Assembly (NCBI GenBank): GCA_937995785.1
Contig: CALKJQ010000060.1
Span: 1-55,398 of the forward strand
DNA length: 55,398 nt
Origin: Candidatus Kapaibacterium sp.
GTDB lineage: Bacteria > Bacteroidota > Ignavibacteria > Kapaibacteriales > UBA2268
Direction of reading: 5' to 3'
Each line of letters starts with the position of its first letter. Positions within the stretch are counted from its first letter, which is position 1. The notes below the pieces were generated by a model. That model made no database searches. It was not told where the DNA came from and saw nothing but the letters and a program-made list of their open reading frames with translations. Of this stretch, positions 147-48,455 are shown one piece after another. The translations under genes and the position numbers were made by a program.

Positions 147-214
147 TCAGATAAAGAAGAATGAGTAAATAAAAATTTGAAAACAAAATGTATAATAAAA
201 TAGAGGAAATAATT

Positions 215-3200
215 ATGAGAAAATCGACCAACAAAATCTGGAAAATAGCAATCGTAGCAACAGTGCTATTTGTAGTGGTTGGATTTTTGAGCGAGACATT
301 TGCTCAATCGTACTACGATTTTTCGCTGAAATACCGCAGATTGGGTAACAAGATTGGAGTTGAATTGTGGGTGAAATCCACAAGTGCATCGGCGCCAGCA
401 TTGGGGTCGTTCACAGTTCCCGTTACCTACAACACAAGTTTTTTGCAACCAGCGGCATTAACTTACACAGCACACCAAACAGATAGCGTAAGCTACAATG
501 TGGATCAGTCAAGTCCCGTCCCGACGATAACATCGCCCTATCATAGTGCAAATGGCTATGGAGCAATCACAATCGTAAATGGAACTGGATATGCAGAATG
601 GGAAATCACCTACAACAGTGGCTCGGGCTTTGTTCCATCATCGACAGGCCGGGGAACATTTGTTGGCAGGATAGAATTCGACATTATTAACTATGCAACA
701 TTAGGTGCGTCCGACCAAACAGGCATAGCAATCAAAACAAGTGGCATACCTAATATTGCAGTAACCAATACCAGTGGAACAACATTAACATTGAATACAG
801 ACTATACAGTAACAAATCCAACAGATATCAACATCAAAGGTATAACAATATTAAATCCAAACGGACCAAAAGAAGTTGTAAATAAGTACTATAAATACTC
901 GTCGTTAGGTGGCACTATTTATGGCTATCCAATATACTTTGAGCGTTCGGGATTGGTAAACACAGCAACATATAACTATGGAACAGATGCATTGGCATAC
1001 CAAGCATCATACTCGATAGATGGCGGAATAAATTATACAAACACATTCCGATTTGCCGAGACCTCAGCCTTAGCAACAGTGGTCAATTATGCAAATTTAG
1101 CTGATGGCGATATAGAAACAACAACCGGAATACTACCAGGCTATACCGTAACAAAACCCGATGGATCGCCCGTTCCATTCAATTGGAAAGGAGTATTGCG
1201 AGTAATCTGGAAAGCCGACCCATATTTTGCACAACGAAGCGAAAAAGCACGCTTTAAGTTGCAACAATTGTCGCCAACCGGAAGCGGCTCGCCAATCACA
1301 GGCCGAACATTAGAAACACCCTTTGGAACAAGCGAATTCAACTTTGTGTTGGGTCGCACATTTTTTGTTCAATTGGACGGACAATGTGCATATCTAAAGA
1401 CAGCGCAAAATTATAGTTTGCCAACTCAATTAACAGTTGAAGCATGGGTAAACGTAAACGCATTAGGAGCAGCCGGAACCGAACCGGGAATTATAGCCCA
1501 CAGTGGTGGGTCGTCCTCCCCTGGCGAAGGAGCATTTTTATTGTATTTGGAGAACGGACAATATCCTGCATTCCGCGTACGCGAATTCCAAGACAGAGGT
1601 TATGATGGATCATCGATTTATTTGGGCAAAGTAGTAGCCAACGAACCAATAACAGTTGCCAATGCAAACATAGTGCTATCGAACGATGCGGCAAGCGAGG
1701 CACATCGCAAGAATTGGGTGCATTTAGCAGGCGTAGTTCGCAATAATGTAGTGGAATTATATGTAAATGGTCAAAGAGTGGGACGCACAACCAACACCCA
1801 AGCAATAGATGCAAGAATGGCAACATTCGAACATCCAGTGTGGGTGGGAGTAAATCCAAATGGCGGCATCCAAGCAGGCGACTATGTTAATGCAGGTATC
1901 AAAGAAGTAAAAATTTGGAGAACAGCATTAACACAAGAAGAAATCCAAAGCAAAGCCGCAGGCGTTTACGACCCAGCTGGCGCAATCAACCCATTGGGAC
2001 CATTAAATCCAGATTCATTGAGAATTTCGTTGGATATGTACTACACATTCCAAGCAAATCGCAACGATTATGCAACAGACGTAACATATCAATACGGAAA
2101 TAATATATTAAATAACTACACATGTAGCGAAGTGATGGATAACGATGCAATCGTTTATCGTCCCGACCGTCCACACATCAAATTAATCGCACCAATCGCA
2201 GGCGACGGAGCAAAGAACAAAGAAGACGATTTGTTCTATATTCGTTGGATTGGATTTGGTTTGGGTTCGATAGCATCGTCGTCGTCGCAAGATTTGCAAA
2301 TTGAATTTAGCCGCGATGGTGGATTGAACTGGGCAGATGCTTTGGATAATACAGTATCGCCCGCAGGCGTGCCATTAGACCAAGTGGAAATCGAATCGAA
2401 TTATGCAATATGGGAACCATATAATAGCGTAACATATTCAGGTGCATATTCGGATTTACAAGGCTTGGGAAACACAATCGACCAAAACTATACTAAAACA
2501 ACAAAAATTAGAATTAAGGGTAAAACTACCAACAACCAAGATGATATTTATGACGAAAGTGGCGAATTTTATGTAGCACCATACTTTGCACTTCGCAATG
2601 GTGGAGCCGCACAAATATACGTGCCAGGTTCGACAGATTTCAACTTAAGTCGTGGTGTATCATTTATCGAAATGTGGATTTCGCCCGAAAGATTTCCAAC
2701 TGCATCCGAAGGCTACTTTGTGTTGGCATCGAAATCGAATGGAACAAATTCTCATTATGAATTAAGATTGTTGAGCAATGGAAGATTACAATTCTTGGTT
2801 GTTAATTCAAGTGGAACAATCTTAACAGCAACAAGTGATGCAACTAAACCATTAGTAGTGCCAAACGAAACATTGTTAGGTAAAATCTGGACACATGTAG
2901 GCGTTTTGGTTAATTTAGCAAACGGAACAGGCACAAGTAATGTTCGCTTCTATATTGATGGTTTGCCCCAAACCGAAGATGTATTAACACAACAATTGGG
3001 ATCGAATGTAACAACTAATTTGTCGAACACATACCCATTGTATATTGCATCCTCACCAACAGGCACCAACAACTTTGTTGGCGAAGTTCGTGAATTCCGT
3101 TTCTGGAATGGCTATCCCGCCGACCAATCAGCATCGGGAGTGGAATCGCAAGCAAGTCCAACGGCATTGACCAAGTTTATTCAAGGTGCATTAACTACAT

Positions 3201-6200
3201 ACGCTAAAGATTTCACGACAACACCAACAAATTATCAAAAGAACTTAGTTGCCGCATTTGCATTCGATGGCGGTTCGTTTGTCAATAATGGTTGGTATAA
3301 ATCAGTACCATCAACAAATAGCAACCATCAAGCATTAATCATAGGCAACGTTGGCTTGAATGGTAATGGAATAAGCTACCGAAGCACTCGTCCATATTTG
3401 AAATTGGTTGAACCAATAGTAAAGCAAGAAGTGCCTAACACAACAACAGACTTACGCGTTCGTTGGGTAGGATTCCACTTTGACGAAGTAGCATTCCGTT
3501 CGGGTAGCAATGCATTGAACCAAGATGCAGATATGTCATTCGGTTTGTTCGGTGGAGGTGGTCAAGTTATTCAGCCTTATCAATTTGTGGCAAGTGATAA
3601 ATATGCAGTAGCATATACCAATGCATTAAGTTTATTAACAACAACTGCATATAGGTTTGCTGGAACATCAACAACTCCACAATATGCTGCATCTTTGAAT
3701 ATTTCAATCACAGATCCCGACGAAAACAATGACGAAACATACAACGACCAAGGACCATTAAGTGCTGCATTAACCAATGCAAGATTACGCTTGCGAGGTC
3801 GTTCCACTATAAATGCTTCGATTCCTTGGGAATACACAAGCATTCCAACTTTGCAAACCGAAGGTAATTTGTTTACAGTTACTCCTCCATCCAACTTTAC
3901 TTTAAGAGTATTATTGGAAGGTTTCCACACTGGTAGCAACAATAACATAGTTAATTTGGGTTCAACATATAATACATTAGGTATCAAAGCATCGTTGTTC
4001 TCCGAAAGTGCTGGTCAGCCCAATGAATTGCGTGCAACCAAAGAAGGAACAGGCTACATTACTTCCAATGCAACAGCATTAGATCCAACAACTCGTGGAA
4101 CAAATGGTTCTTATTTTGCAAATGTGCCATTTGTATTCACCAACTTAACAGACGGCAACTACTTTGCAGTAGTAGAACATTTAAACCACTTGCCAGTTAT
4201 GTCCCGTTTTGCTGCACCATTTATGTTTGATGGTGATAATTTGGAGACTTGGACAATTGAATCGGGTTGGGACTTCCAAAGCTGGGGTCAAAACTCAACT
4301 CCAACTGCAAATGATTATATGCAAGTATCCACCGACGACAAATATTCGGGAACAGGTTTATTCTCGGCATACGGTCAAACACAAATCAGTCCAAGCATCG
4401 TAGGTTTCGACGAAACTTCATTGAACTTTACTGCTGGTCAGATTGTATCGACTTCGAATAAAATGGCTGCAATGGTAGCTGGTGATGTTTATCGTGATGG
4501 TCAAATCAATGCAATCGACCGTGTTCAAGTTCGCGCCGATATAGGTTCGTCCGTCTATCGTTCCGATGTTACGGGTGATGGTTTGGTAAATGCAATCGAC
4601 CGCGATTTAACCGACCGTAACTCGAACAAATTAACTCGTTTAACAGACCTTGGTGTTGTAACCTATCCAGCTGTTCCTAAAGCATTTGATTGGATTGCAC
4701 AAAGTAACCCAATCGAAGCTGTTTCGCCATTAGATCCAAATCGCAGTGAAGAAATGAATAATGCTGCCAAAGAATTCTTGGCTAATGGTGGAAAACGCAA
4801 CGATAAGAAAAACAACAACTATGCTTTGCAAGGTGGTGTTAGCTATAAAGTTATGGGTTCGACTGAAAAGAAAGGCGATAAAATCTATGTTAACGTCTTT
4901 ATCCAAAATACAGGCGGCGATTGGGCTCCGGGTAACTGTACATTTGGTTTAACATTCGACAACAATTCGCTCGAGTTTGTCGGATTAACAAATGTGGACG
5001 AAAACCCATTCCAAAACTACAAAAACAAAGGTTACTCAGCGGCATATTCGGGTCCAACCAAGGACGGTATCAACCCAATTGCTAACCTGAGAACAATCGA
5101 AATCGACTATGATGGTTATGTTCGTCCCGAAGGCGTTATTGTTCCTAAAACTTGGACTAAATTAGGTACTTTGGAATTCAAAATTAATAGTTTCGTTGAT
5201 AGATATGAATTTGCTTGGCACAACATCACCGCTGTATTAACTACAGATGGTCGCAACGTAACAGGTAATGGCGAATTTATGCCAATCGAACCCGTTGATG
5301 TTGTTAGAACTGTTGCTATCACTTCTCCAAATGGCGGCGAAAACTGGCGTTCTGGCAAAACTTATCAAATCACTTGGACATTACCATCGGATAATGCTAT
5401 GGGTTATCTTGAATTTTCGGATAACGCTGGTGCATCTTGGTCGAGAATTACCGCTGAACCAATCAACTTAATGTCGGGTGTTTACACTTGGAATTCACCA
5501 AAAGTAAACTCCAACAAATGCTTGGTTCGCATCGTTGATATCCGCAACGGTAACGAAATCGACCGTAGTAACAACACATTCACATTGAGCGAAGACGTAA
5601 TTAAAATCACTCGTCCTGCATCCACCGATCCTATCTACAAATACGGCAAGATCGACTTTATCGAATGGACAATGGAAGATCTGGCAACCATTCGCTTCGA
5701 ATTTAGTGCAAACGGCAAAGATAATTGGAAAATAGTTACCGATCCAGTTAGCTCACGCTTATTGCAAACTAAATGGGAAATCCCTGCAGTGAACACTCGC
5801 GAAGCCGTTGTTCGTATGGTTGATGTTAATACCAATCAGGTGTTGGCTTATAGCTCACCATTCAAAATTTTGGGTGGCAATGGCACATTTATCACTCCTA
5901 AGAAAGGTCAAATTGTTAAATGTGGTGCGAGCGAACCTATTCGCTGGACAAGTGAATACATCAGTAAATTCGATTTGCAACTCTCGGTTGATGGTGGCAA
6001 AACTTGGCAATTTATCGCAAAAGATGTTAATGCATTGAAGAGTGTTTATACTTGGACAGTTCCAAGTGTTAAAACCGACAATGCTATTATCCGTGCAATT
6101 TGGAATGGTCAAGAAGATATGGAATATATGAGAACTAGTATTTTCCGCATCCAATGCGACGGTATTGGCAATGTGGAAGAACCTGTGGCTAAAATCCACT

Positions 6201-6457
6201 TCTTGAACGAACCCGTTCCAAACCCATTTGCCAACGAAACAAGAGTTCGCTTCACTTTGGGAACAACAGCAAAAGTTTCTGTTAAAGTTTACTCAGTAAA
6301 TGGAGATTTGGTTGCTATCTTGGCTGACAATGTTGATTTCGTTGAAGGTACTCATTCGTTAGACTTCAATGCAATTAACTTACCAGCAGGTGTTTATATC
6401 ATCCGTTTGAATGCAGGTACATTTGTTGATACCAAAGAAGTAATTCACATCAAATAA
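215..6457 (+). CDS. Giant secreted T9SS substrate with cohesin-like, two LamG/ConA-like, dockerin-like, and three C-terminal 'SPNGGEnW...ItW' domains plus a type-A sorting domain
   Basis: ORF 188..6457; the ATG at 215 (MRKSTNKIWKIAIVATVLFVVVGFLSETFAQ, signal peptide, SD-like agagga upstream) is the likelier start. C-terminus NEPVPNPFANETRVRFTL...LPAGVYIIRLNAGTFVDTKEVIHIK is typical of a T9SS CTD. Confidence 0.85.
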   Translation: MRKSTNKIWKIAIVATVLFVVVGFLSETFAQSYYDFSLKYRRLGNKIGVELWVKSTSASAPALGSFTVPVTYNTSFLQPAALTYTAHQTDSVSYNVDQSSPVPTITSPYHSANGYGAITIVNGTGYAEWEITYNSGSGFVPSSTGRGTFVGRIEFDIINYATLGASDQTGIAIKTSGIPNIAVTNTSGTTLTLNTDYTVTNPTDINIKGITILNPNGPKEVVNKYYKYSSLGGTIYGYPIYFERSGLVNTATYNYGTDALAYQASYSIDGGINYTNTFRFAETSALATVVNYANLADGDIETTTGILPGYTVTKPDGSPVPFNWKGVLRVIWKADPYFAQRSEKARFKLQQLSPTGSGSPITGRTLETPFGTSEFNFVLGRTFFVQLDGQCAYLKTAQNYSLPTQLTVEAWVNVNALGAAGTEPGIIAHSGGSSSPGEGAFLLYLENGQYPAFRVREFQDRGYDGSSIYLGKVVANEPITVANANIVLSNDAASEAHRKNWVHLAGVVRNNVVELYVNGQRVGRTTNTQAIDARMATFEHPVWVGVNPNGGIQAGDYVNAGIKEVKIWRTALTQEEIQSKAAGVYDPAGAINPLGPLNPDSLRISLDMYYTFQANRNDYATDVTYQYGNNILNNYTCSEVMDNDAIVYRPDRPHIKLIAPIAGDGAKNKEDDLFYIRWIGFGLGSIASSSSQDLQIEFSRDGGLNWADALDNTVSPAGVPLDQVEIESNYAIWEPYNSVTYSGAYSDLQGLGNTIDQNYTKTTKIRIKGKTTNNQDDIYDESGEFYVAPYFALRNGGAAQIYVPGSTDFNLSRGVSFIEMWISPERFPTASEGYFVLASKSNGTNSHYELRLLSNGRLQFLVVNSSGTILTATSDATKPLVVPNETLLGKIWTHVGVLVNLANGTGTSNVRFYIDGLPQTEDVLTQQLGSNVTTNLSNTYPLYIASSPTGTNNFVGEVREFRFWNGYPADQSASGVESQASPTALTKFIQGALTTYAKDFTTTPTNYQKNLVAAFAFDGGSFVNNGWYKSVPSTNSNHQALIIGNVGLNGNGISYRSTRPYLKLVEPIVKQEVPNTTTDLRVRWVGFHFDEVAFRSGSNALNQDADMSFGLFGGGGQVIQPYQFVASDKYAVAYTNALSLLTTTAYRFAGTSTTPQYAASLNISITDPDENNDETYNDQGPLSAALTNARLRLRGRSTINASIPWEYTSIPTLQTEGNLFTVTPPSNFTLRVLLEGFHTGSNNNIVNLGSTYNTLGIKASLFSESAGQPNELRATKEGTGYITSNATALDPTTRGTNGSYFANVPFVFTNLTDGNYFAVVEHLNHLPVMSRFAAPFMFDGDNLETWTIESGWDFQSWGQNSTPTANDYMQVSTDDKYSGTGLFSAYGQTQISPSIVGFDETSLNFTAGQIVSTSNKMAAMVAGDVYRDGQINAIDRVQVRADIGSSVYRSDVTGDGLVNAIDRDLTDRNSNKLTRLTDLGVVTYPAVPKAFDWIAQSNPIEAVSPLDPNRSEEMNNAAKEFLANGGKRNDKKNNNYALQGGVSYKVMGSTEKKGDKIYVNVFIQNTGGDWAPGNCTFGLTFDNNSLEFVGLTNVDENPFQNYKNKGYSAAYSGPTKDGINPIANLRTIEIDYDGYVRPEGVIVPKTWTKLGTLEFKINSFVDRYEFAWHNITAVLTTDGRNVTGNGEFMPIEPVDVVRTVAITSPNGGENWRSGKTYQITWTLPSDNAMGYLEFSDNAGASWSRITAEPINLMSGVYTWNSPKVNSNKCLVRIVDIRNGNEIDRSNNTFTLSEDVIKITRPASTDPIYKYGKIDFIEWTMEDLATIRFEFSANGKDNWKIVTDPVSSRLLQTKWEIPAVNTREAVVRMVDVNTNQVLAYSSPFKILGGNGTFITPKKGQIVKCGASEPIRWTSEYISKFDLQLSVDGGKTWQFIAKDVNALKSVYTWTVPSVKTDNAIIRAIWNGQEDMEYMRTSIFRIQCDGIGNVEEPVAKIHFLNEPVPNPFANETRVRFTLGTTAKVSVKVYSVNGDLVAILADNVDFVEGTHSLDFNAINLPAGVYIIRLNAGTFVDTKEVIHIK
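4481..4632 (+). other. Dockerin-like (type I) duplicated EF-hand segment inside the giant surface protein
   Basis: GDVYRDGQINAIDRVQVRADIGSSVYRSDVTGDGLVNAIDRDLTDRNSNK: two D-x-x-x-D-G-x-[IV]-N-A-I-D repeats. Confidence 0.7.
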
Positions 6458-17404: not shown

Positions 17405-20400
17405 TTAGGGCATATAAATGAATTTTTGAGTTAATGACTCTGAGCCATTTATTCTCAAAACGTAAGTTCCCGCAGATAATTGAACTGGTAGATTATTCAT
17501 ATAGAAGGAAATTGTATTGTAACCTTCACCAATTCTGTAATCGTTGGACCATTTAACTTCGCCATTCAAATCAATAATTTCAATTTTAACTGATTCGGAG
17601 GCAGGAGCAAACAAATCGAATACCAATTCATCGCGTACTGGATTTGGAGCAATTGAATTCATTTCGAAACGGTTGCCAACTACTGCAAAGTCGGTTTCGC
17701 GTGGAGTTGTGTAGATAACCTTAGGATTGTTTGTAGCACTATTTGGATTATAGAGTATCATTCCACTGTAATTTGCATAAGTAAATCCACGGAAGTAGTA
17801 CGCAGTATTTTGAGCTAAGTTGGTAACTGTTACGTTTGTTGCAGTTCCGTTCAAGATAACATAAGCGTTGTTGCCCAAATCATCACCCAATGGGAATTGA
17901 GTGTTGGCTGTGTAGCTTGTGTTATTTGTTGGAGTTGTTGGGGCAATTGAATTGCTTTGCTTAACTGCAATAATGTGTGCATCGCCACTACCAGCAGTGA
18001 ATTGGATTGTTATTGTGTTCTTGGAACGAGCAGTGAAGTAAATACCCGATACTTGAGTAGCAGGATAAACTGTCAAGCTTGCATAGTTACTGAACACATT
18101 GCCACAACCAGCGTTGATAGCTTCGCAGTAATAGTATCCAATATGAGAATATTGAATATTGTTCAAATTCAAAGTTGCAGATGTTGCACCCGAAATTGGA
18201 GTTCCATCATATCCCGAATTATCGTTGTCGTAATACCATTGGTAAGAAGTTGTGTTAAGAGCAGTAACGCTGAATGAAACATTGGAACCAACACCACTTG
18301 AAACGTTTGCGGGATGACCGGTGATGCTTGGTGGTGCAACAACAGTAACTGTAATATTATAGTTATTACTTACGCAAGTATTTGCATTGCGAACATTCAG
18401 AATTGCGTTGTATGTGCCGACTGCTGCTCCAGCAGGAACAGTAATTACTATTGGCGAGGTTGGCAATGAAGTCCAAGCAACATCAACAAAACCTTGTGCT
18501 TCAGCAGCACCATCAAAATTAATCGTGTAATCTGTTGGTGATTCAGTTGTTGCACTATAGGTTAAATTAGTAGATGTTGTTCCCTGGCATACTGATGGAT
18601 TAGTACCCAAAGTAATGGTTGGTAATGCATTGATTGTTACAGTAATGTTGTAGGCTTGGCTTTCGCAAGTTGTTCCGGAGTTTCTAACCTTTAACACGGC
18701 ATTGTAAACACCAGCAGGAGCAGCAGGTACTGCGATAGTAATTGGTGAAGCAGGTAAAGCTGTCCAACCAACATCAACAAAACCAGCTCCATTGGCTGTT
18801 AAATCGAAATCAATTGAGTATTGATTAGCACCGCCGGTGGTTGCTGAATAAGTTAAGTTGGCAGGAGTTGAACCAAAGCATACACTTGGATTAGCTCCTA
18901 AAGTGATTGTTGGTAATGGGTTGATTGTCCAACTTACGGTTGAAGTAACAGGAGTACAATGGTCAGCATTACGAGTTGTTCGAATTTCTACCTGAGTGTA
19001 TCCAGTTGTTGACAAGTTGTTGCCTGGTGTATAAGCCGACCAAGCACCTGCACCATTGTAGCGATATTCATAAGTATTTGTGCCATTACCGCCACTTCCA
19101 CCAGAGAAAGTAGCACTTACGGGTGTTCCGTCGCAAACGCTGGCAACATTAGGCGATTTTGTAATTGTTTGAGCTACTGGAATAGCTTCAACAGTCCAGC
19201 TAACAGTGTTTGTTGCAGGAGTGCAAGCAGATGCATTTCTTGTAGCACGAATTTGGATATTAGTTAATCCAGCAGCAGCTATTGGTGTTCCACCAGTATA
19301 TGCAACCCATGGAGTCCAAGTCATTCCACCATCAGCGGAAGTTCTTGATTCGTATGTGTTGATGCCATTACCACCACTACCACCAGTAAATGTAGCATTA
19401 ACTGAACTAGTGCCACAAACTACAGTTGTATTAGGTGATTTTGTGATTGTTGGAGCAACTGGAGTTGCTTCAACTGTCCAACTTGCTGTGTTAGTTGCAG
19501 GAGTGCAAGCGATAGCATTGCGAGTTGCACGAACTTCAACGTTAGTTAATCCAGTAGTGATAATTGGGTTACCAGCACCATAAGTAGTCCAACCGGTCCA
19601 AGTACCACCACCATTTGTGGATGTTCTGTATTCATAAGTGTTTGTGCCATTACCACCACTTCCACCAGAGAAAGTAGCACTTACATTAGTGCCTGCACAA
19701 ACGGAAGCAGTATTGGGCGATTTGGTAATAGTTTGAGCAACGGGAGTTCCTTCTACTATCCAGCTAACAGTGTTAGTTGCAGGAGTGCAAGCAGATGCAT
19801 TGCGAGTTGCACGAACTTCAATATGAGTTAGACCAGCTGCAGCTATTGGATTACCTGATGTATAAGCAGTCCAACCGGTCCAATTTACTCCGCCATCGTT
19901 TGATGTTCTATAATGATAACTATTGGTGCCATCTCCACCACTACCGCCCGAGAATGTTGCACTTGCGTTGGATGTTTGACAGACGTGTGTACCAGCTGGT
20001 GTTTTGTTGATTGTTTGAGCAACAGGAGTTGCTTCGACTGACCACATAACTGTGTTCCAAGCTGATGTAGCACAAATAGCGGCTAATCTACGTGTACGAA
20101 TTTGAACAACATTTGCTCCCGAAAGACCTGTTGTCGAGATGCTGTTGCCAGATGTATAAGTAGTCCAAGTACCGCCAGCATTGGTTGAATACTGAGTTTC
20201 GTCAGTTCCATTGCCACCTGAACCAGGAGTTAAAGTTGCACTTACGGCAGTTCCAGCACAAACAGTTGCAACATTTGGTGATTTAGTTAAAGTGCCGGCT
20301 ATTGGAGTTCCTTCGATTGTTACGGTGAAGCTATAAGCAGCACTTTCGCATAATAAAGCATTTCGAACTTTTAATGTTGCATTATAAACACCAGCAGGAA

Positions 20401-22108
20401 CACCAGGAATTGTCAAAGCAATCGGTGAAACTGGTAAACCAGTCCAAGCAACATCCACGAAACCTGCAGTATTTGCGGCTGCATCATAATCTATTGAATA
20501 TTGAGTTGGAGTGCCTGTTGCACCAGAATATGGTAAATTAGCTGTTGGTGTTCCTTGGCAAACCTGTGGATTAGTTCCTAAGGTAACTGTTGGTAATGCA
20601 TTAATAGTAACTGGTAAATTATCGGTACCAACACAACCATTGATGTCGGTTACTGCAATGCTTACTGAACCAGCTCCAGCAGTACCCCAATCGACTGTGA
20701 TTGATGATGTATTTTGGCCAGCTGTGATTGTTCCGCCCAACACAGTCCAACTATATGAATTGAAAGCACCAACGGAATAAGTTACGCCAATTTGACCATC
20801 ACATACACCTGCTGGTCCAGTGATAGCAGGAGTTGGCAAAGCAATCTTTGTTACTGGTAATACTGTTGAACCAGAACAACCGTTAAGGTCGGTTACGTTA
20901 ACTGTAACATTTCCAACTCCAGCAGCGCCCCAATTAACAGAGATAGAAGACATATTTGTTGGTCCAACTATTGTTCCGCCACTGCAAGTCCAGCTAATTG
21001 AAGAATATGAACCAGTGATTGAATAAGTTTGTCCGGTTACATTTGCACAAACTGTGGTATTTCCCGAGATCGGAGGATTTGGTAATGGATTGACGGTAAC
21101 TGTGTAGGATGCACTACCAGTACAGCCACTTCCATCTGTAACTGCAACAGAAACTGTTCCAATTCCACCTGGACCCCAATCAACAGTCAAAGTATTAGTT
21201 CCTTGTCCAGCAGCGATTGTACCACCAGAAACAGTCCAGAAGTATGTAGTGAATGCTGGAGAAACAGTATAAGTTACTCCTAATGTATTAGCACAAACAC
21301 TTGCAGTTCCCGAAATAACAGGAGCACCGCCGGTAGTAGAAAAGTTAACAGAAGCAGTCGAAGAAGCAGTGTTATAGAACGCGTCATAGGTTAGAAGTTC
21401 AGCTTTGTAATTAGTGCTTGGGTTCAAACCAGTAATTGTGTAGGTTTTGGAAACGGGAAGTCCTATGTCGAGAGCGCTAATGACAACGGTGCTTGTCGAT
21501 AAATCAGTAACGGTAAGGAAATAACCCGCAGCATTTGCCCCATCTGTTGTCCAAGCTATTTGCCCACCAGAGAAGCAAGTATAATTCATTGCCAAGCCAG
21601 TTGGTGGGGTAATTGTGTAAGGAGTGAAGCTTCTTGGATTCATAAAAGCATTTGAATAATTGAATTGAGGCATATTGCCACTTAAATTGAATTCAAATAC
21701 TTTTACGTGATATTGAGTGTTAGTGGTTAGATTAATGAAATTTGATGTACGGTTTTGCCCCGTAGTCCTATCCATAATAACATAGGTAATACCACTATTA
21801 ACCCATTTGTTTGTAGAACTTGCAAAAGCAATGTTGAAATCACCATTTGCATCTACAACATTATTGATGTTTGTGATAGCTGCTAAAAAAGATGTTTGGA
21901 AAGCAGTCCAATTGGCTGCTCCACCGTAAGCAGCCACTGCGATACGGTTTGTTCCGTTTCCGTTTATCCAGGAAACAGTAACAGAAGTGCTTTGAGCATT
22001 TGTGAAACCAACATAGCGTGCTTGCAATGATGGTGGAGCGGCCATAACCTCGAGTGTAAGGCTACAGAGAGCAACAAATGCTAAAAGGAAGATTGTGAAT
22101 TTTTTCAT
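17405..22108 (-). CDS. Giant secreted T9SS substrate with mosaic tandem PKD/Ig-like repeats and type-A sorting domain
   Basis: 1567 aa; signal peptide; FN3-like domain, three PKD-like repeats, repeats of two further classes, Ig-like domain, C-terminal IAPNPVRDELVFDLFAPASESVKIEIIDLNGEV...LSAGTYVLRINGSESLTQKFIYMP. Confidence 0.88.
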   Translation of the reverse strand: MKKFTIFLLAFVALCSLTLEVMAAPPSLQARYVGFTNAQSTSVTVSWINGNGTNRIAVAAYGGAANWTAFQTSFLAAITNINNVVDANGDFNIAFASSTNKWVNSGITYVIMDRTTGQNRTSNFINLTTNTQYHVKVFEFNLSGNMPQFNYSNAFMNPRSFTPYTITPPTGLAMNYTCFSGGQIAWTTDGANAAGYFLTVTDLSTSTVVISALDIGLPVSKTYTITGLNPSTNYKAELLTYDAFYNTASSTASVNFSTTGGAPVISGTASVCANTLGVTYTVSPAFTTYFWTVSGGTIAAGQGTNTLTVDWGPGGIGTVSVAVTDGSGCTGSASYTVTVNPLPNPPISGNTTVCANVTGQTYSITGSYSSISWTCSGGTIVGPTNMSSISVNWGAAGVGNVTVNVTDLNGCSGSTVLPVTKIALPTPAITGPAGVCDGQIGVTYSVGAFNSYSWTVLGGTITAGQNTSSITVDWGTAGAGSVSIAVTDINGCVGTDNLPVTINALPTVTLGTNPQVCQGTPTANLPYSGATGTPTQYSIDYDAAANTAGFVDVAWTGLPVSPIALTIPGVPAGVYNATLKVRNALLCESAAYSFTVTIEGTPIAGTLTKSPNVATVCAGTAVSATLTPGSGGNGTDETQYSTNAGGTWTTYTSGNSISTTGLSGANVVQIRTRRLAAICATSAWNTVMWSVEATPVAQTINKTPAGTHVCQTSNASATFSGGSGGDGTNSYHYRTSNDGGVNWTGWTAYTSGNPIAAAGLTHIEVRATRNASACTPATNTVSWIVEGTPVAQTITKSPNTASVCAGTNVSATFSGGSGGNGTNTYEYRTSTNGGGTWTGWTTYGAGNPIITTGLTNVEVRATRNAIACTPATNTASWTVEATPVAPTITKSPNTTVVCGTSSVNATFTGGSGGNGINTYESRTSADGGMTWTPWVAYTGGTPIAAAGLTNIQIRATRNASACTPATNTVSWTVEAIPVAQTITKSPNVASVCDGTPVSATFSGGSGGNGTNTYEYRYNGAGAWSAYTPGNNLSTTGYTQVEIRTTRNADHCTPVTSTVSWTINPLPTITLGANPSVCFGSTPANLTYSATTGGANQYSIDFDLTANGAGFVDVGWTALPASPITIAVPAAPAGVYNAVLKVRNSGTTCESQAYNITVTINALPTITLGTNPSVCQGTTSTNLTYSATTESPTDYTINFDGAAEAQGFVDVAWTSLPTSPIVITVPAGAAVGTYNAILNVRNANTCVSNNYNITVTVVAPPSITGHPANVSSGVGSNVSFSVTALNTTSYQWYYDNDNSGYDGTPISGATSATLNLNNIQYSHIGYYYCEAINAGCGNVFSNYASLTVYPATQVSGIYFTARSKNTITIQFTAGSGDAHIIAVKQSNSIAPTTPTNNTSYTANTQFPLGDDLGNNAYVILNGTATNVTVTNLAQNTAYYFRGFTYANYSGMILYNPNSATNNPKVIYTTPRETDFAVVGNRFEMNSIAPNPVRDELVFDLFAPASESVKIEIIDLNGEVKWSNDYRIGEGYNTISFYMNNLPVQLSAGTYVLRINGSESLTQKFIYMP
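18915..20307 (-). repeat. Five tandem ~92-aa (about 278-bp) intragenic repeats
   Basis: Consensus PVAQTITKSPN.ASVC.GT.VSATFSGGSGGNGTNTYEYRTS..GG.TWTGWT.Y..GNPI...GLT.VEVRATRNA.ACTPATNTVSWTVEAT, five consecutive copies. Confidence 0.85.
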
Positions 22109-42003: not shown

Positions 42004-42319
42004 TAATTTATATACTAACGAAACTTTGAAGTTAGTTCCTGGCAAGGAACTTTTTGAAAAAATTTTAAAAACGGGCAACTTTTTTGTGGAAAGAATTATA
42101 AGCCCCGGAAATTGTCCGAGCAAGGAATGGATGATACAGGATTGGACGGAACTGGTTTTTCTAATCAAAGGCAGTGCAACCATAGAATTCGAGGGTAATC
42201 AAACAATTGAATTGAAAGAGGGGGATTATTGCTCAATTCCAAAGCAATTAGCCCACCGAGTAATAAAAACAAATGATTTACAAACAATTTGGTTAGCAAT
42301 TCATTATGAAGAAAATTAA
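41993..42319 (+). CDS. Small cupin-domain protein
   Basis: 108 aa; [55 protein letters not shown]. Confidence 0.88.
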
Positions 42320-43283
42320 AACAATTGCCCGACCTAATATTGCGTTAATTAAATATTGGGGAAAACGCGACGAAAAATTAAACCTACCCGCAGTTGGTAG
42401 CATATCGATAACATTGGATGGAATTTCAACTAAAACCGAAATCTGGTTAACTCAAGACGTTGATAAATTCTATTTGAACGAAAAAATCGATATCGATGAG
42501 CATTCAAAAATTGTCCCTTTCTTGGATTATGTTAGGGATTTCATTAACGACAAGGTGTATTTCGAAATACATTCTGTTAATAATTTTCCCACAGCTGCTG
42601 GTTTGGCTTCATCAGCGTCGGGTTATGCCTCGATAGCAAAGGGTATTAATCAATTGCTAAATTTAAATTTATCAGATAAAGAATTATCCAAACTTGCGCG
42701 TCGGGGAAGTGGTTCGGCAGCTCGTTCTATTTTTGGTGGTATTGTGGAAATGCACAAAGGCAACGAACCCGATGGCTCGGATTGTTATGCCGAACAATTG
42801 TATTCTACCGAATATTTCCCGCTGGATGTAGTTGTTGTTATTACCAACACAGAAGTCAAAAAAACAAGTTCACGCAACGGTATGCTGATCTCCAAAAATA
42901 CTTCTCCATATTATTCCAATTGGGTTAATAATTCAGAATACGATATAAACGCTATGAAAATGGCATTACGCGAAAAGGATTTTAATAAAATTGCCGATTT
43001 ATCAATCCGTAGCTGCCTTAAAATGCACTCGGTTATGATGACTTCTAATCCGCCGTTGTTATATTGGAATTCTACTACATTCGAAATTATAAAGCAAATC
43101 GAAGATTTATTTTACGAGCAAAATCAGCCGGTATTTTTCACTATCGACGCTGGTCCCCAAGTTAAAATTCTTACTACCCCCGATTATAAAAAACATTTGT
43201 TAAAAATTATTAAAAAATTAGACAATATTCAAGATTATTACGTCTTAGAACTCGGAAATGGTGCAGAAATAATTGAGGATTAA
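42306..43283 (+). CDS. mvaD: Diphosphomevalonate decarboxylase
   Basis: 325 aa; ARPNIALIKYWGKRDEKLNLPAVGSISITLDG; NFPTAAGLASSASGYA; ARRGSGSAARSIFGG. Confidence 0.96.
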   Translation: MKKIKTIARPNIALIKYWGKRDEKLNLPAVGSISITLDGISTKTEIWLTQDVDKFYLNEKIDIDEHSKIVPFLDYVRDFINDKVYFEIHSVNNFPTAAGLASSASGYASIAKGINQLLNLNLSDKELSKLARRGSGSAARSIFGGIVEMHKGNEPDGSDCYAEQLYSTEYFPLDVVVVITNTEVKKTSSRNGMLISKNTSPYYSNWVNNSEYDINAMKMALREKDFNKIADLSIRSCLKMHSVMMTSNPPLLYWNSTTFEIIKQIEDLFYEQNQPVFFTIDAGPQVKILTTPDYKKHLLKIIKKLDNIQDYYVLELGNGAEIIED

Positions 43284-44381
43284 TTGAATATTTCCACTAA
43301 AACACCTGGAAAACTAATAATATTAGGCGAATATGCAGTGCTCGAGGGTGCACCCTCGCTTGTTGCCTCCACCAATAGATTTGCAAATGCAATTTTTAAA
43401 AAATCCGAGGACGGAGTGTTCAAAATTAAAGCTCCTTCCATCAATGTTCCTTTACTAAATTTTTTGATGGATGATGATGGCAAAGTGAAATTCATCGATA
43501 AATCCTTCGAAAAAGTAATGGAAAAACTCAGTTTATTTGTTGCAATATTCGAACATACAGCGCGAAAATTAACCGAAAAAGGAATAAAAATTCCACCATT
43601 AGAAATATTTTTGGATACTTACGATTTTTATTACACTCAGAGTTTATTGAAATTAGGCTTAGGTTCGAGTGCCGCAGTTACAGTATCGCTCATAACGGGG
43701 CTACTATCAGCAAATTTGGTCGACCCGAACGAAATATCACGCGAAACTATTTTGAAACTCGCAATGGATTCCCACAAAAAAGCACAAGGTAATATCGGAA
43801 GTGGTATCGATATCGTTACGGCAGTATATGGGGGCATTCTAAAATATCAAATAAAAAATAATGAAATAAGCTTTCAGAGATTGAAGATGCCCGAAAACTT
43901 ATATTATTTAACGGTTTGGTCAGGTAAATCAGCCTCGACAACAGGTTATGTGAAAAAATTCTATGACTATAAAAAACAAAGTCCCAATGAGTTTCGGCAA
44001 TTAGTCCACAGAATGACCATAACTTCGAGCGAAGGAATAGAAGCTTTCGAAAATCAAGATTTGGATATTTTCCTAAAAAAATACGACGAGTATTATCACC
44101 TACTTCATTCGTTAAATCATAATTTGTCGATACCCGTAATTACTAACGAACATCGATTAATCCACGAAGTTTGCCATAGCAATGGAGTTGTTTATAAATC
44201 CTCGGGTGCAGGCGGAGGCGATCTGGGAATTGCTTTTTCTACCTCAAAAGAAAAGCTGGATTTAGTTGCAAGTGAATTAAAATCGCTAAATTTCGATACT
44301 TTAGAAATTGAGTTCGGAGCCGATGGTATCAACGAAGAAATTCCTCTAAGAGAAGAATATGCCAAATTCTCGTATTCCTAA
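43284..44381 (+). CDS. mvaK2: Phosphomevalonate kinase (GHMP family)
   Basis: 365 aa, TTG start immediately after the mvaD stop; KTPGKLIILGEYAVLEGAPSL, LGLGSSAAVTVSL, GNIGSGIDIVTAVYGG, KSSGAGGGDLGIAF. Confidence 0.88.
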   Translation: MNISTKTPGKLIILGEYAVLEGAPSLVASTNRFANAIFKKSEDGVFKIKAPSINVPLLNFLMDDDGKVKFIDKSFEKVMEKLSLFVAIFEHTARKLTEKGIKIPPLEIFLDTYDFYYTQSLLKLGLGSSAAVTVSLITGLLSANLVDPNEISRETILKLAMDSHKKAQGNIGSGIDIVTAVYGGILKYQIKNNEISFQRLKMPENLYYLTVWSGKSASTTGYVKKFYDYKKQSPNEFRQLVHRMTITSSEGIEAFENQDLDIFLKKYDEYYHLLHSLNHNLSIPVITNEHRLIHEVCHSNGVVYKSSGAGGGDLGIAFSTSKEKLDLVASELKSLNFDTLEIEFGADGINEEIPLREEYAKFSYS

Positions 44382-46599
44382 TTTTTATAAATTTTCTATA
44401 TTTCAGCGTTACGATATCCTTCGCGAAAATGGATTTATCGAGCAACAGGATATTAAGGACATTATCGAAGAAAAATACGAACTAACCGACGAACAAGCCA
44501 ACAAAATGATAGAAAATGTGATTTCTACATTTTCACTACCAATGGGATTGGCTCTGAATATGCAAGTAAATGGGAAAGACTATGCCGTTCCAATGGTAGT
44601 CGAGGAACCATCGATTGTTGCGGCGTTGAGTTCGGCTGCCAAGATTGTTCGCGAATCGGGCGGGTTTAGTGCCGAAAGCACTCGTCCCGTGCTAATAGGT
44701 CAGGTTTTATTGCTAAATGCAGAACATTCCACCAAGTCGAAACAGGCAGTAATACAACACAAAGACGAGATATTGGCATTAGCAAATTATTTGCAACCAA
44801 ATATGTATTCTCGTGGTGGGGGAGCAATCGATTTGGACGTAAGGATATTGCCCAATCCGAACGATACGGGTGATATGATTGTAGTGCACATATATGTTGA
44901 TACTTGCGATGCGATGGGCGCCAATATGGTGAATAGTATTTGCGAGGGTATCGCACCTTTGCTCGAAAAGATATCAGGAGCTAAGTCGTTTATGCGAATT
45001 TTGTCGAATTTACACGACAATTCTATTGCTCGTGCAAAGTGCGTTATTCCACCACAATTGCTCAACGATGGAAAATACGATGGCAAGGAATTAATCGACG
45101 GGATAATTATTGCAAATCAATTTGCAATAATGGACCCATATCGAGCCGCAACCCATAACAAAGGTATTATGAATGGAATAGACCCATTAGCAATAGCAAC
45201 GGGGAATGATTGGCGTGCCATCGAGGCTGGAGTTCACGCCTTTGCTTCGAGAACGGGTAGATATATTTCCCTCACAAATTGGCATAGGGACGCTAATGGC
45301 AATTTAGTCGGGTCAATCGAGATACCATTAAAGGTTGGAATAGTTGGTGCTCCTCTGCAATCCAATCCAAAGATTAAGTTGGTCCATAAAATTTTAGGTA
45401 TAAAATCCGCAAACGAATTGATGGAATTGATGGCGGCTGTGGGATTGGCTCAGAATTTTTCGGCAATTAAAGCATTGGTAAGCGAGGGAATTCAACGTGG
45501 CCATATGAGCTTGCATGCGCGTTCGGTTGCCAAAGCTGCGGGCGTTAGCGAAAAGTATTTTGATATCGTTGTCGATGAATTAATCAAATTAGGAGATATT
45601 AAAATTAGAACAGCTCAAGATATTGAACAAAAATTACAAAACAATAAAATGGTAATAGAAGAAAAAAAGGAAGAACAAAATCTGCATTCAGGCTATGGGA
45701 AAGTGATTTTATTTGGCGAACACGCAGTTGTGTATGGTTCGAATGCTATTGCAGCACCAATACCCTATGCTATAAAATCCAAAGTGGAACCATCACAGAA
45801 TGGGACCCGCATAGTTATTCCTCGTTGGGGGGTGGAATTTGATTTATTTAAGAAAACCAAAGATACCAACTCATTAATTCAATCTGCCGAGTTAATTATA
45901 ACAAAATTGGGATTGGACAAAACACCGCTCCAAATTTTGGTTTTTCCAGGAATTCCGCGTGCAATGGGTTTGGGTGGTTCGGCGGCTCTGGCTGTATCAA
46001 TAATTAGGGCATTGTCGCATTTTGCAAGTAAAAATCTATCGGACGAACAAATAAACGAAATTGCCTATGAATCCGAAAAATTGGTTCACGGCACTCCGTC
46101 GGGAATCGACAATACTATGGCTACTTATGGCAAATTAATCAGATACAAAAAGGATGCCCAACCAAAAACGCAATTAATCGACTTGAAAAATCCACTTCCA
46201 ATTGTTATTGGATTGAGCGGCACCGAAGGTTTAACCTTAAAAATGGTACGAATGGTACGCGAAGGTTGGTTAAAAAATCGAAATCACTATGATACAATTT
46301 TCAATCAAATCAATCAAATATCATTGGAAGCAATCGAGGCATTCGAAAATTACGACTTGGAAAAATTAGGTTATTTAATGAATCTAAACCACGGATTTCT
46401 GAATGCGTTGCAAGTATCCACTCAAGAATTGGAGGAAATGATTGCAATAGCTCGTCGCAATGGTGCATTGGGTGCAAAACTCACCGGTGGAGGTGGTGGC
46501 GGTGCAATGATAGCATTATGTCCCGATCACCGAAACGAAGTTGTCCAATCACTAAACAATTCTGGTTACCATACTATAGTAACTGATATTACAAATTAA
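44359..46599 (+). CDS. Bifunctional class II HMG-CoA reductase - mevalonate kinase fusion
   Basis: 746 aa. N-terminal ~430 aa: LPMGLALNMQVNGKDYAVPMVVEEPSIVAALSSAAKI...GHMSLHARSVAKAAG (class II HMGR). C-terminal ~315 aa: GYGKVILFGEHAVVYG, MGLGGSAALAVSIIRAL, VHGTPSGIDNTMATYG, KLTGGGGGGAMIAL (mevalonate kinase). Confidence 0.93.
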   Translation: MPNSRIPNFYKFSIFQRYDILRENGFIEQQDIKDIIEEKYELTDEQANKMIENVISTFSLPMGLALNMQVNGKDYAVPMVVEEPSIVAALSSAAKIVRESGGFSAESTRPVLIGQVLLLNAEHSTKSKQAVIQHKDEILALANYLQPNMYSRGGGAIDLDVRILPNPNDTGDMIVVHIYVDTCDAMGANMVNSICEGIAPLLEKISGAKSFMRILSNLHDNSIARAKCVIPPQLLNDGKYDGKELIDGIIIANQFAIMDPYRAATHNKGIMNGIDPLAIATGNDWRAIEAGVHAFASRTGRYISLTNWHRDANGNLVGSIEIPLKVGIVGAPLQSNPKIKLVHKILGIKSANELMELMAAVGLAQNFSAIKALVSEGIQRGHMSLHARSVAKAAGVSEKYFDIVVDELIKLGDIKIRTAQDIEQKLQNNKMVIEEKKEEQNLHSGYGKVILFGEHAVVYGSNAIAAPIPYAIKSKVEPSQNGTRIVIPRWGVEFDLFKKTKDTNSLIQSAELIITKLGLDKTPLQILVFPGIPRAMGLGGSAALAVSIIRALSHFASKNLSDEQINEIAYESEKLVHGTPSGIDNTMATYGKLIRYKKDAQPKTQLIDLKNPLPIVIGLSGTEGLTLKMVRMVREGWLKNRNHYDTIFNQINQISLEAIEAFENYDLEKLGYLMNLNHGFLNALQVSTQELEEMIAIARRNGALGAKLTGGGGGGAMIALCPDHRNEVVQSLNNSGYHTIVTDITN

Positions 46600-46615: not shown

Positions 46616-47197
46616 ATGGAAAAATCACTACATTCCGACCAAAACAACAGAATCGTATCATTTGTCGATGAGCCATTAATATTGGTTGACGAAAACGATG
46701 TTGAGATTGGTTACGAAAGCAAAGACAAGTGCCACCAAGGAAATGGCATATTGCACCGTGCATTCTCTATTTTTTTGTTCAACAGCAATCACGAATTACT
46801 TTTTCAAAAACGTTCCGACGATAAATTACTTTGGGGAGGGTATTGGTCTAATACCGTTTGCAGCCATCCACGCAAAGGCGAAACTATCGAAGTTGCCACA
46901 CAAAGAAGATTGATGGACGAAATGGGTGTGGAAGCCGAGTTGCAATTTCTATTTAAATTTCAATATCAGGCAAAGTTCAAACAAATCGGTTCCGAAAATG
47001 AATTGTGCTATGTTTTTATCGGTAAGCACGATGGACCTTATCATCCCAATCCCAACGAAATAAAAGATTTAATGTTTATTCCTTTCGATAAAATCGAGGA
47101 AGAACTCAAACGGAATGGAAAATTCTACACGCCGTGGTTCAAAATCGAATACCAAAGAATGTTAGAAGAATTTCGAGAACAAGTATATTCATTGTAA
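46616..47197 (+). CDS. idi: Isopentenyl-diphosphate delta-isomerase type I (Nudix)
   Basis: 193 aa; HRAFSIFLFNSNHELLFQKRSDDKLLWGGYWSNTVCSHPRKGETIEVATQRRLMDEMG. Confidence 0.96.
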   Translation: MEKSLHSDQNNRIVSFVDEPLILVDENDVEIGYESKDKCHQGNGILHRAFSIFLFNSNHELLFQKRSDDKLLWGGYWSNTVCSHPRKGETIEVATQRRLMDEMGVEAELQFLFKFQYQAKFKQIGSENELCYVFIGKHDGPYHPNPNEIKDLMFIPFDKIEEELKRNGKFYTPWFKIEYQRMLEEFREQVYSL

Positions 47198-47267: not shown

Positions 47268-48455
47268 TTGAATATATTATTTCTTACGCCAAGATTACCA
47301 TATCCATTAATTGGTGGGGACCGAATTAAACCTTACCATTTACTTTCGCATCTTGCAAAGAATCATTCTGTTACTTTGGTATCGTTTTACCAAGGCAAAC
47401 ATGATTGGCGACAATACCAAAAGGAGTTAGAAAAATTGGGCATTGAGGTTTTTATTTTACCCTTAAACCCCATTAAAGCAGGTTTGAGCTGCTTGTTTCG
47501 GATTTATCAATTGAAACCTCTTGAGATTTTATATTATTTGCAATCTGAGTACCATAAATTGGTGAACGAACTGCTTACGACTCGAAAATATGATATTGGT
47601 TTTTCATTTTTTATGAGAACAGCCGAATATCTAAAAAAAGCAGACATCCCAAAAGTACTTATTGCCGAAGACTGCCGAGTTCTCTATCAATATCGATCGT
47701 TTAAAGAAAGCAAAAGTATCCCCCAAAAAGCAATCCGATTGTACGAGCACCTAACTCTCAAACTTTACGAACCCAAAACTATGAAGTATTTCGACCGCGA
47801 TACATTTGTATCAACCGAAGATATCGATTATATGAAATCTGTATTGCCATTAGACACTTATCGGTTGATTACAAATGGAACAGAAGTAGATAAATTTGTT
47901 CCCGATGATTTTTCCAAGCGTCACACCATACTTTTCACGGGAAATTTAGGATTGTGGGCAAACAGAATGATGATGGATAGAATTATTTATTCTATTTTTC
48001 CCGCTATCAAAAAAGCAGTTCCCAATGCAACCTTAACTTTTGTTGGTGCAAGAGCCCCCGAATACGTAAAAGAATTGCATCAAAGCGGTTTTCTAACATT
48101 ATACGAAAATGTTCCCGATTTCGTCCCATATTTGCAACAAGCCAGATTATTCCTTCATCCTCATTTGGGTGCCTCGGGAATACAAAATAAATTGCTCGAA
48201 GCAATGAGTGCTGGTTGCCCCGTAGTAACCACTCATTCGGGAAATCAGGGAATACACGGTGTTCATAACGAGCATTTGATGATAGGTGTGGAAGACGAGG
48301 AAATAATAGAACATTCTATCGATTTATTGACCAACGAAGCCAAAGCCCGTAAAATATCCGAAAATGCGCGTCAGTTAATAGTAAACAATCATTCCTGGCA
48401 AAGGGTGTTCAACGACCTCGACAAATTGATAGACGAGGTTCTAAATGCCAAATAA
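47268..48455 (+). CDS. Glycosyltransferase family 4-like protein
   Basis: 395 aa, TTG start; MNILFLTPRLPYPLIGGDRIKPYHLLSHLAKNHSVTLVSF; ILFTGNLG; LHPHLGASGIQNKLLEAMSAGCPVVTT. Confidence 0.88.
   Translation: MNILFLTPRLPYPLIGGDRIKPYHLLSHLAKNHSVTLVSFYQGKHDWRQYQKELEKLGIEVFILPLNPIKAGLSCLFRIYQLKPLEILYYLQSEYHKLVNELLTTRKYDIGFSFFMRTAEYLKKADIPKVLIAEDCRVLYQYRSFKESKSIPQKAIRLYEHLTLKLYEPKTMKYFDRDTFVSTEDIDYMKSVLPLDTYRLITNGTEVDKFVPDDFSKRHTILFTGNLGLWANRMMMDRIIYSIFPAIKKAVPNATLTFVGARAPEYVKELHQSGFLTLYENVPDFVPYLQQARLFLHPHLGASGIQNKLLEAMSAGCPVVTTHSGNQGIHGVHNEHLMIGVEDEEIIEHSIDLLTNEAKARKISENARQLIVNNHSWQRVFNDLDKLIDEVLNAK

Follow-up and report, generated by a model that had tools for sequence, protein, structure and literature searches.

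The window, a stretch of 55,398 nucleotides, contains a compact operon with the gene order MvaD, phosphomevalonate kinase, HMGR::MVK and IDI-1. The first gene (42306..43283, +) encodes a diphosphomevalonate decarboxylase (MvaD; TIGR01240, 288 bits, cut-off 171). It is followed by the gene of a GHMP kinase (43284..44381, +), probably a phosphomevalonate kinase (PMK), which reaches 123.6 bits with TIGR01220, below the cut-off of 165.7, and holds a conserved position, the PMK slot being the same in all fusion operons examined. The PMK gene overlaps by 23 bp the HMG-CoA reductase::mevalonate kinase fusion gene (44359..46599, +; 746 aa), which is assigned by its single frame and by Pfam, NCBIfam and fold matches. 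A type 1 isopentenyl-diphosphate isomerase gene (IDI-1; 46616..47197, +; TIGR02150, 147 bits, cut-off 106) completes the operon. Promoter and terminator scans gave site counts about equal to those of shuffles. The operon PMK (43284-44381) is conserved to a lesser degree than the genes beside it: compared to the fusion operons of other phyla, it shows 26-35% identity and MvaD 38-46%.

Next to the operon lies a glycosyltransferase (47268-48455) with a match to TIGR03087 (PEP-CTERM/XrtA-associated) below cut-off, and a TIGR03087-like glycosyltransferase also stands beside the operon in the sister genus (L143, L144). The window further encodes two very large secreted-looking proteins of 2089 and 1567 aa (188-6457 and 17405-22108), whose C-termini resemble sorting-signal domains when judged by eye only.

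A preliminary description had read the fusion gene as one uninterrupted ORF, and a single frame does run from the ATG at 44359 to a TAA ending at 46599. It is the sole HMGR and the sole MVK copy in the 2.25 Mb genome, in which one further match was obtained, namely the neighbouring PMK, which matches the kinase half weakly. The genome is a draft of 153 contigs, and most of the relatives are also drafts, mostly metagenome-assembled. An assembly or sequencing artefact joining two genes might be suspected in such a draft, but its probability is negligible, because a further 42 distinct sequences show the fusion, from genomes that were assembled independently and belong to two phyla, and these independent occurrences led us to reject it. 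Two apparent irregularities among the relatives were likewise dismissed: the locus of G004 reads as a full 746-aa fusion and its apparent stop was taken as the terminal one, while the odd length of L148 (G728), a candidate broken fusion, is caused by a stretch of N in the part that encodes the kinase. The HMGR::MVK fusion is true and conserved, belongs to known families and is apparently undescribed.

Domains and active-site residues

The class II HMGR part comprises residues 1-423 (44359..45627, +), as delimited by PF00368/TIGR00532, residue mapping and model helices. The Pfam family HMG-CoA_red (PF00368) matches residues 16-387 (E 4e-109), and TIGR00532 scores 410.5 bits against an NCBIfam cut-off of 260. 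Residues 444-746 (45688..46596, +) constitute the mevalonate kinase part, for which TIGR00549 (248.8 bits, cut-off 163), GHMP_kinases_N (PF00288, residues 507-590), GHMP_kinases_C (PF08544, residues 658-737) and an alignment to solved MVKs agree. The charged linker postulated to join the halves could be located at residues 424-443 (45628..45687, +) from pLDDT and a linker alignment; in the relatives the linker has 20-36 aa and is variable in sequence.

Alignment to the P. mevalonii HMGR identified the catalytic residues E83, K268, D284 and H382 of the reductase, and the catalytic Lys, Ser, Glu and Asp of the kinase were assigned by motif to K448, S541, E573 and D584. All eight are invariant in the 43 distinct fused homologues, with one D584 falling into a run of N. 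The preliminary description had claimed that all hallmark motifs of both enzymes are there, which agrees with the presence of the checked catalytic residues and with both profiles scoring over their cut-offs. The predicted activity of the N-terminal half is the reduction of HMG-CoA to mevalonate, which would consume 2 NAD(P)H. For the C-terminal half, phosphorylation of mevalonate with ATP to 5-phosphomevalonate is predicted; the nearest solved relatives are MVKs and the position in the operon agrees with this.

An AlphaFold2 model built from 21 fused sequences (mean pLDDT 80, pTM 0.55) displays two folded halves, the relative placement of which is not fixed by the model. Linker residues 430-439 have a pLDDT <50. 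The C-terminal flap of the reductase at residues ∼379-428 consists of three model helices (379-393, 401-411 and 416-428) of low to moderate confidence, with parts of the flap weak. In Foldseek searches the first half matched class II HMGR structures (1qax, E 4e-41) and the second half mevalonate kinases (2hfs, E 1.5e-22; 6mde), and none of the 50 matches listed was a solved chain spanning both halves.

The P. mevalonii reductase is the source of the family name 'degradative'. Since degradative-type class II reductases are the best NCBIfam and PDB matches of the N-terminal half, a mevalonate-degrading enzyme working in the reverse direction like that of P. mevalonii has to be considered. However, the operon carries the downstream biosynthetic genes as far as IPP isomerase, the lack of Dxr discussed below makes the mevalonate route necessary for isoprenoids, and the cofactor residues are not of the NADH type, which renders a degradative role very improbable. 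NADH-type HMGRs have D146, Q147, L148 and L152, where NADPH-type enzymes have Y/P/S/R (PMC10070635). Instead of the P. mevalonii-type set Asp146/Gln147/Leu148/Leu152, the fusion protein has Q146, P147, N148 and R152, with P147 and R152 found in 43/43 fused sequences. From these residues the fusion protein would use NADPH and, as they are NADPH-like, we infer a biosynthetic role, so that the family name is not to be taken literally.

One chain or two proteins

The fused frame could be continuous by accident, with the kinase made separately by initiation within the linker and translationally coupled as in Oceanobacillus. In Oceanobacillus, Lentibacillus and relatives HMGR and MVK follow each other as separate frames, and in 12/12 loci the HMGR stop overlaps an MVK ATG. 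Most of the 43 fused linkers contain internal start codons, with an SD-like 4-mer before one of them in 16/43. In the window an in-frame Met at 45649 is indeed present, as previously remarked, and corresponds to residue 431. However, the position of this Met is not conserved in the relatives, the linkers of L058 and L109 are without any internal start, and the shared frame is preserved in 43 distinct sequences, stop-free through a linker of varying length and sequence. Two separate proteins are therefore an improbable explanation.

It had also been argued that the absence of a Shine-Dalgarno sequence at 45649 speaks for a fusion. None was found there, but the argument is weak, because that scan found none at the genuine start at 44359 either. 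Retention of the frame is the better argument, since fused sequences as low as 45% (HMGR) and 37% (MVK) in pairwise identity all retain it, and the claim of a real fusion is strongly supported by these 43 diverged sequences. The gene product is very likely one bifunctional polypeptide that carries out two successive steps in the synthesis of isoprenoid precursors, with a single origin and a spread together with the operon. Some additional separate MVK may be made from the same mRNA via internal starts.

Distribution, origin and pathway context

The 43 distinct fused proteins were recovered from Bacteroidota and gammaproteobacteria. In the family of the window (f1) the fusion is present in 5/5 genomes of the window's genus and 2/2 of the sister genus but in none of the other family members sampled; among named relatives, the nearest are MAGs to which their submitters gave the label Chloroherpeton thalassium. 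Another family of the class contributes a single genome (G125), and 9 of the 77 genomes of a third family of the same phylum (f43) carry the fusion. The named gammaproteobacterial carriers are largely Rhodanobacteraceae/Lysobacterales MAGs. Within one gammaproteobacterial order 33/151 genomes have the fusion, while of 399 genomes spread over the carriers' phylum only two have it, one of them being the query centre. No fused copy was found in plasmid records. In every fused locus with flanks examined far enough the order MvaD-PMK-HMGR::MVK is identical across phyla, and IDI-1 follows in the examined fused loci except those of f43.

In a tree of 86 sequences all 43 HMGR domains from fused proteins group in one clade (SH-aLRT 100). 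In a first MVK tree the fused group was not one clade but required 3 changes, which we ascribe to very long rows and to a tandem MVK copy in G738. When the very long rows (branch 6.58) and this copy were left out, the fused MVK domains took one side of a branch with support 77. The tandem copy itself encodes MVK alone; it lies immediately downstream of the fusion (L147; G738:C4:93981-97173) and is sister to the MVK half of that fusion in the tree. Divergence of the HMGR and MVK domains correlates with r = 0.93. According to the simplest reading of these trees, the two genes were fused on one occasion and the operon then passed laterally from phylum to phylum. The gammaproteobacterial sequences L029 and L031 fall outside the remaining fused sequences in the HMGR tree, a position that hints at a gammaproteobacterial source of the fusion. 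The fusion would have arisen once, probably when two neighbouring genes on the same strand of a mevalonate operon were joined, and would then have spread with an operon of MvaD, PMK, HMGR::MVK and usually IDI-1. The Oceanobacillus/Lentibacillus arrangement is a plausible analogue of the pre-fusion state, which does not imply ancestry itself.

Synthesis of HMG-CoA is encoded elsewhere in the source genome. A search with PF08540 found no HMG-CoA synthase there, but the view that the genome lacks one was overturned by an archaeal-type synthase on another contig (TIGR00748, 475.6 bits, cut-off 353), which is adjoined by an archaeal-type thiolase (L117/L145; G000:C119, ∼28.7-31 kb). Together with the operon, this thiolase/synthase pair makes the mevalonate route look complete in the source genome. 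The archaeal-type synthase also occurs in G012 and G013 of the same family, which have Dxr and no HMGR match, so that it may be older than the operon or have another role. In the f43 carriers no HMG-CoA synthase was found by PF08540 (G435, G486) or by TIGR00748 over cut-off; f43 genomes including these two (L135-L137, L146) have the fusion operon without IDI-1 and keep Dxr. Fusion-bearing gammaproteobacteria encode a divergent HMG-CoA synthase of ∼500 aa that scores below all NCBIfam cut-offs (L112:391-1875, P0002; G576, G577, G733), and in G579 such a synthase adjoins the fusion operon.

Dxr is the committed enzyme of the MEP pathway. It is absent in 7/7 fused genomes of the window's family and present in 10/12 unfused members tested. 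Since f43, G125 and G580 retained Dxr, the mevalonate operon is an addition there. Apart from G580, the gammaproteobacteria tested (G576-G579) lack Dxr. In the window's lineage the archaeal-type thiolase/synthase pair would feed the mevalonate route, which goes with the absence of Dxr.

Proposed function and relation to known systems

During catalysis the C-terminal flap of class II HMGRs is closed, and it shifts its conformation so that the products can leave (PMC10070635). In the fusion protein the kinase would hang from this flap by a flexible linker of 20-36 aa, and since it is attached straight after the flap, released mevalonate would appear near the tethered kinase. We infer that selection keeps a fixed 1:1 ratio of the two sites and/or their closeness. 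A refinement of the fusion reading is that the fusion was selected for direct channelling, in which mevalonate would pass straight from the reductase site to that of the kinase. The consecutive steps, the placement of the kinase after a mobile flap whose conformation changes for product exit (PMC10070635) and the maintenance of one fused clade over a long divergence are in agreement with this. On the other hand, the low-confidence and variable linker does not imply a fixed tunnel, the pTM of the fusion model is only 0.55, and the fusion may merely fix co-expression and the 1:1 ratio; direct channelling is therefore rather doubtful. The most far-reaching reading would be an undescribed bifunctional enzyme, in which the kinase is tethered to the moving flap and receives mevalonate when the flap opens, and which marks a laterally transferred mevalonate operon that took the place of the MEP pathway in one lineage of Bacteroidota. 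Taken as a whole, this reading is rather improbable.

In the mevalonate route HMGR is commonly rate-limiting, and feedback inhibition often acts on mevalonate kinase. A naturally occurring HMGR::MVK fusion fixes the ratio of both enzymes and offers a ready-made test case for channelling and metabolic engineering. Being a rare genomic change, it also serves as a marker of how an entire mevalonate operon was passed between gammaproteobacteria and Bacteroidota, and in the window's lineage it goes with the loss of the MEP pathway.

The fusion had initially been regarded as not standard. In support of this, searches of the full texts in a collection of 5.39 million open-access papers yielded no description of HMGR and MVK being fused in nature, and term searches of a review on isoprenoid pathways of bacteria (PMC13001223) and of a preprint on HMGR diversity, both from 2026, did not yield one either. 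However, the fusion recurs in at least four lineages of two phyla, is frequent in one gammaproteobacterial order and is thus no singular case, being widespread enough to count as real and useful.

With the known class II HMGRs (P. mevalonii 1qax, Delftia 6dio, S. pneumoniae 5wpj, E. faecalis 7m3h) the N-terminal half shares the fold, the catalytic Glu/Lys/Asp/His and the flap, with 46-48% identity to 1qax-type structures in the fold match. While the solved enzymes stop after the flap, the fusion protein runs on into the kinase, and its cofactor residues are unlike those of the NADH-type P. mevalonii enzyme. Mevalonate kinases of the GHMP family (TIGR00549; 2hfs, 6mde, 2x7i, 1kvk) have their kinase motifs in common with the whole C-terminal half, which differs from them in not being stand-alone, as linker and reductase precede its N-terminus. 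A class II HMGR fused to a neighbouring pathway step is known from MvaE, an acetoacetyl-CoA thiolase::HMG-CoA reductase. MvaE joins the upstream thiolase N-terminally, whereas HMGR::MVK joins the downstream kinase C-terminally; in the fusion protein no thiolase profile matched as an N-terminal domain of the MvaE type, and HMGR homology begins at residue 3. According to the review cited above, IspDF is a bacterial fusion of MEP-pathway enzymes (PMC13001223). It resembles HMGR::MVK as a fusion of isoprenoid-pathway enzymes, but belongs to the other pathway, combines non-consecutive steps and is built from unrelated domains. In the cluster of Oceanobacillus/Lentibacillus, the HMGR of which is 48-52% identical to that of the fusion, MVK comes immediately after HMGR. 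Here, however, two genes in different frames overlap by stop and start, and MvaD and PMK come after them, while they come before in the fusion operons. Both halves of HMGR::MVK represent known families, and it is the combination of domains that is new, not the type of system.
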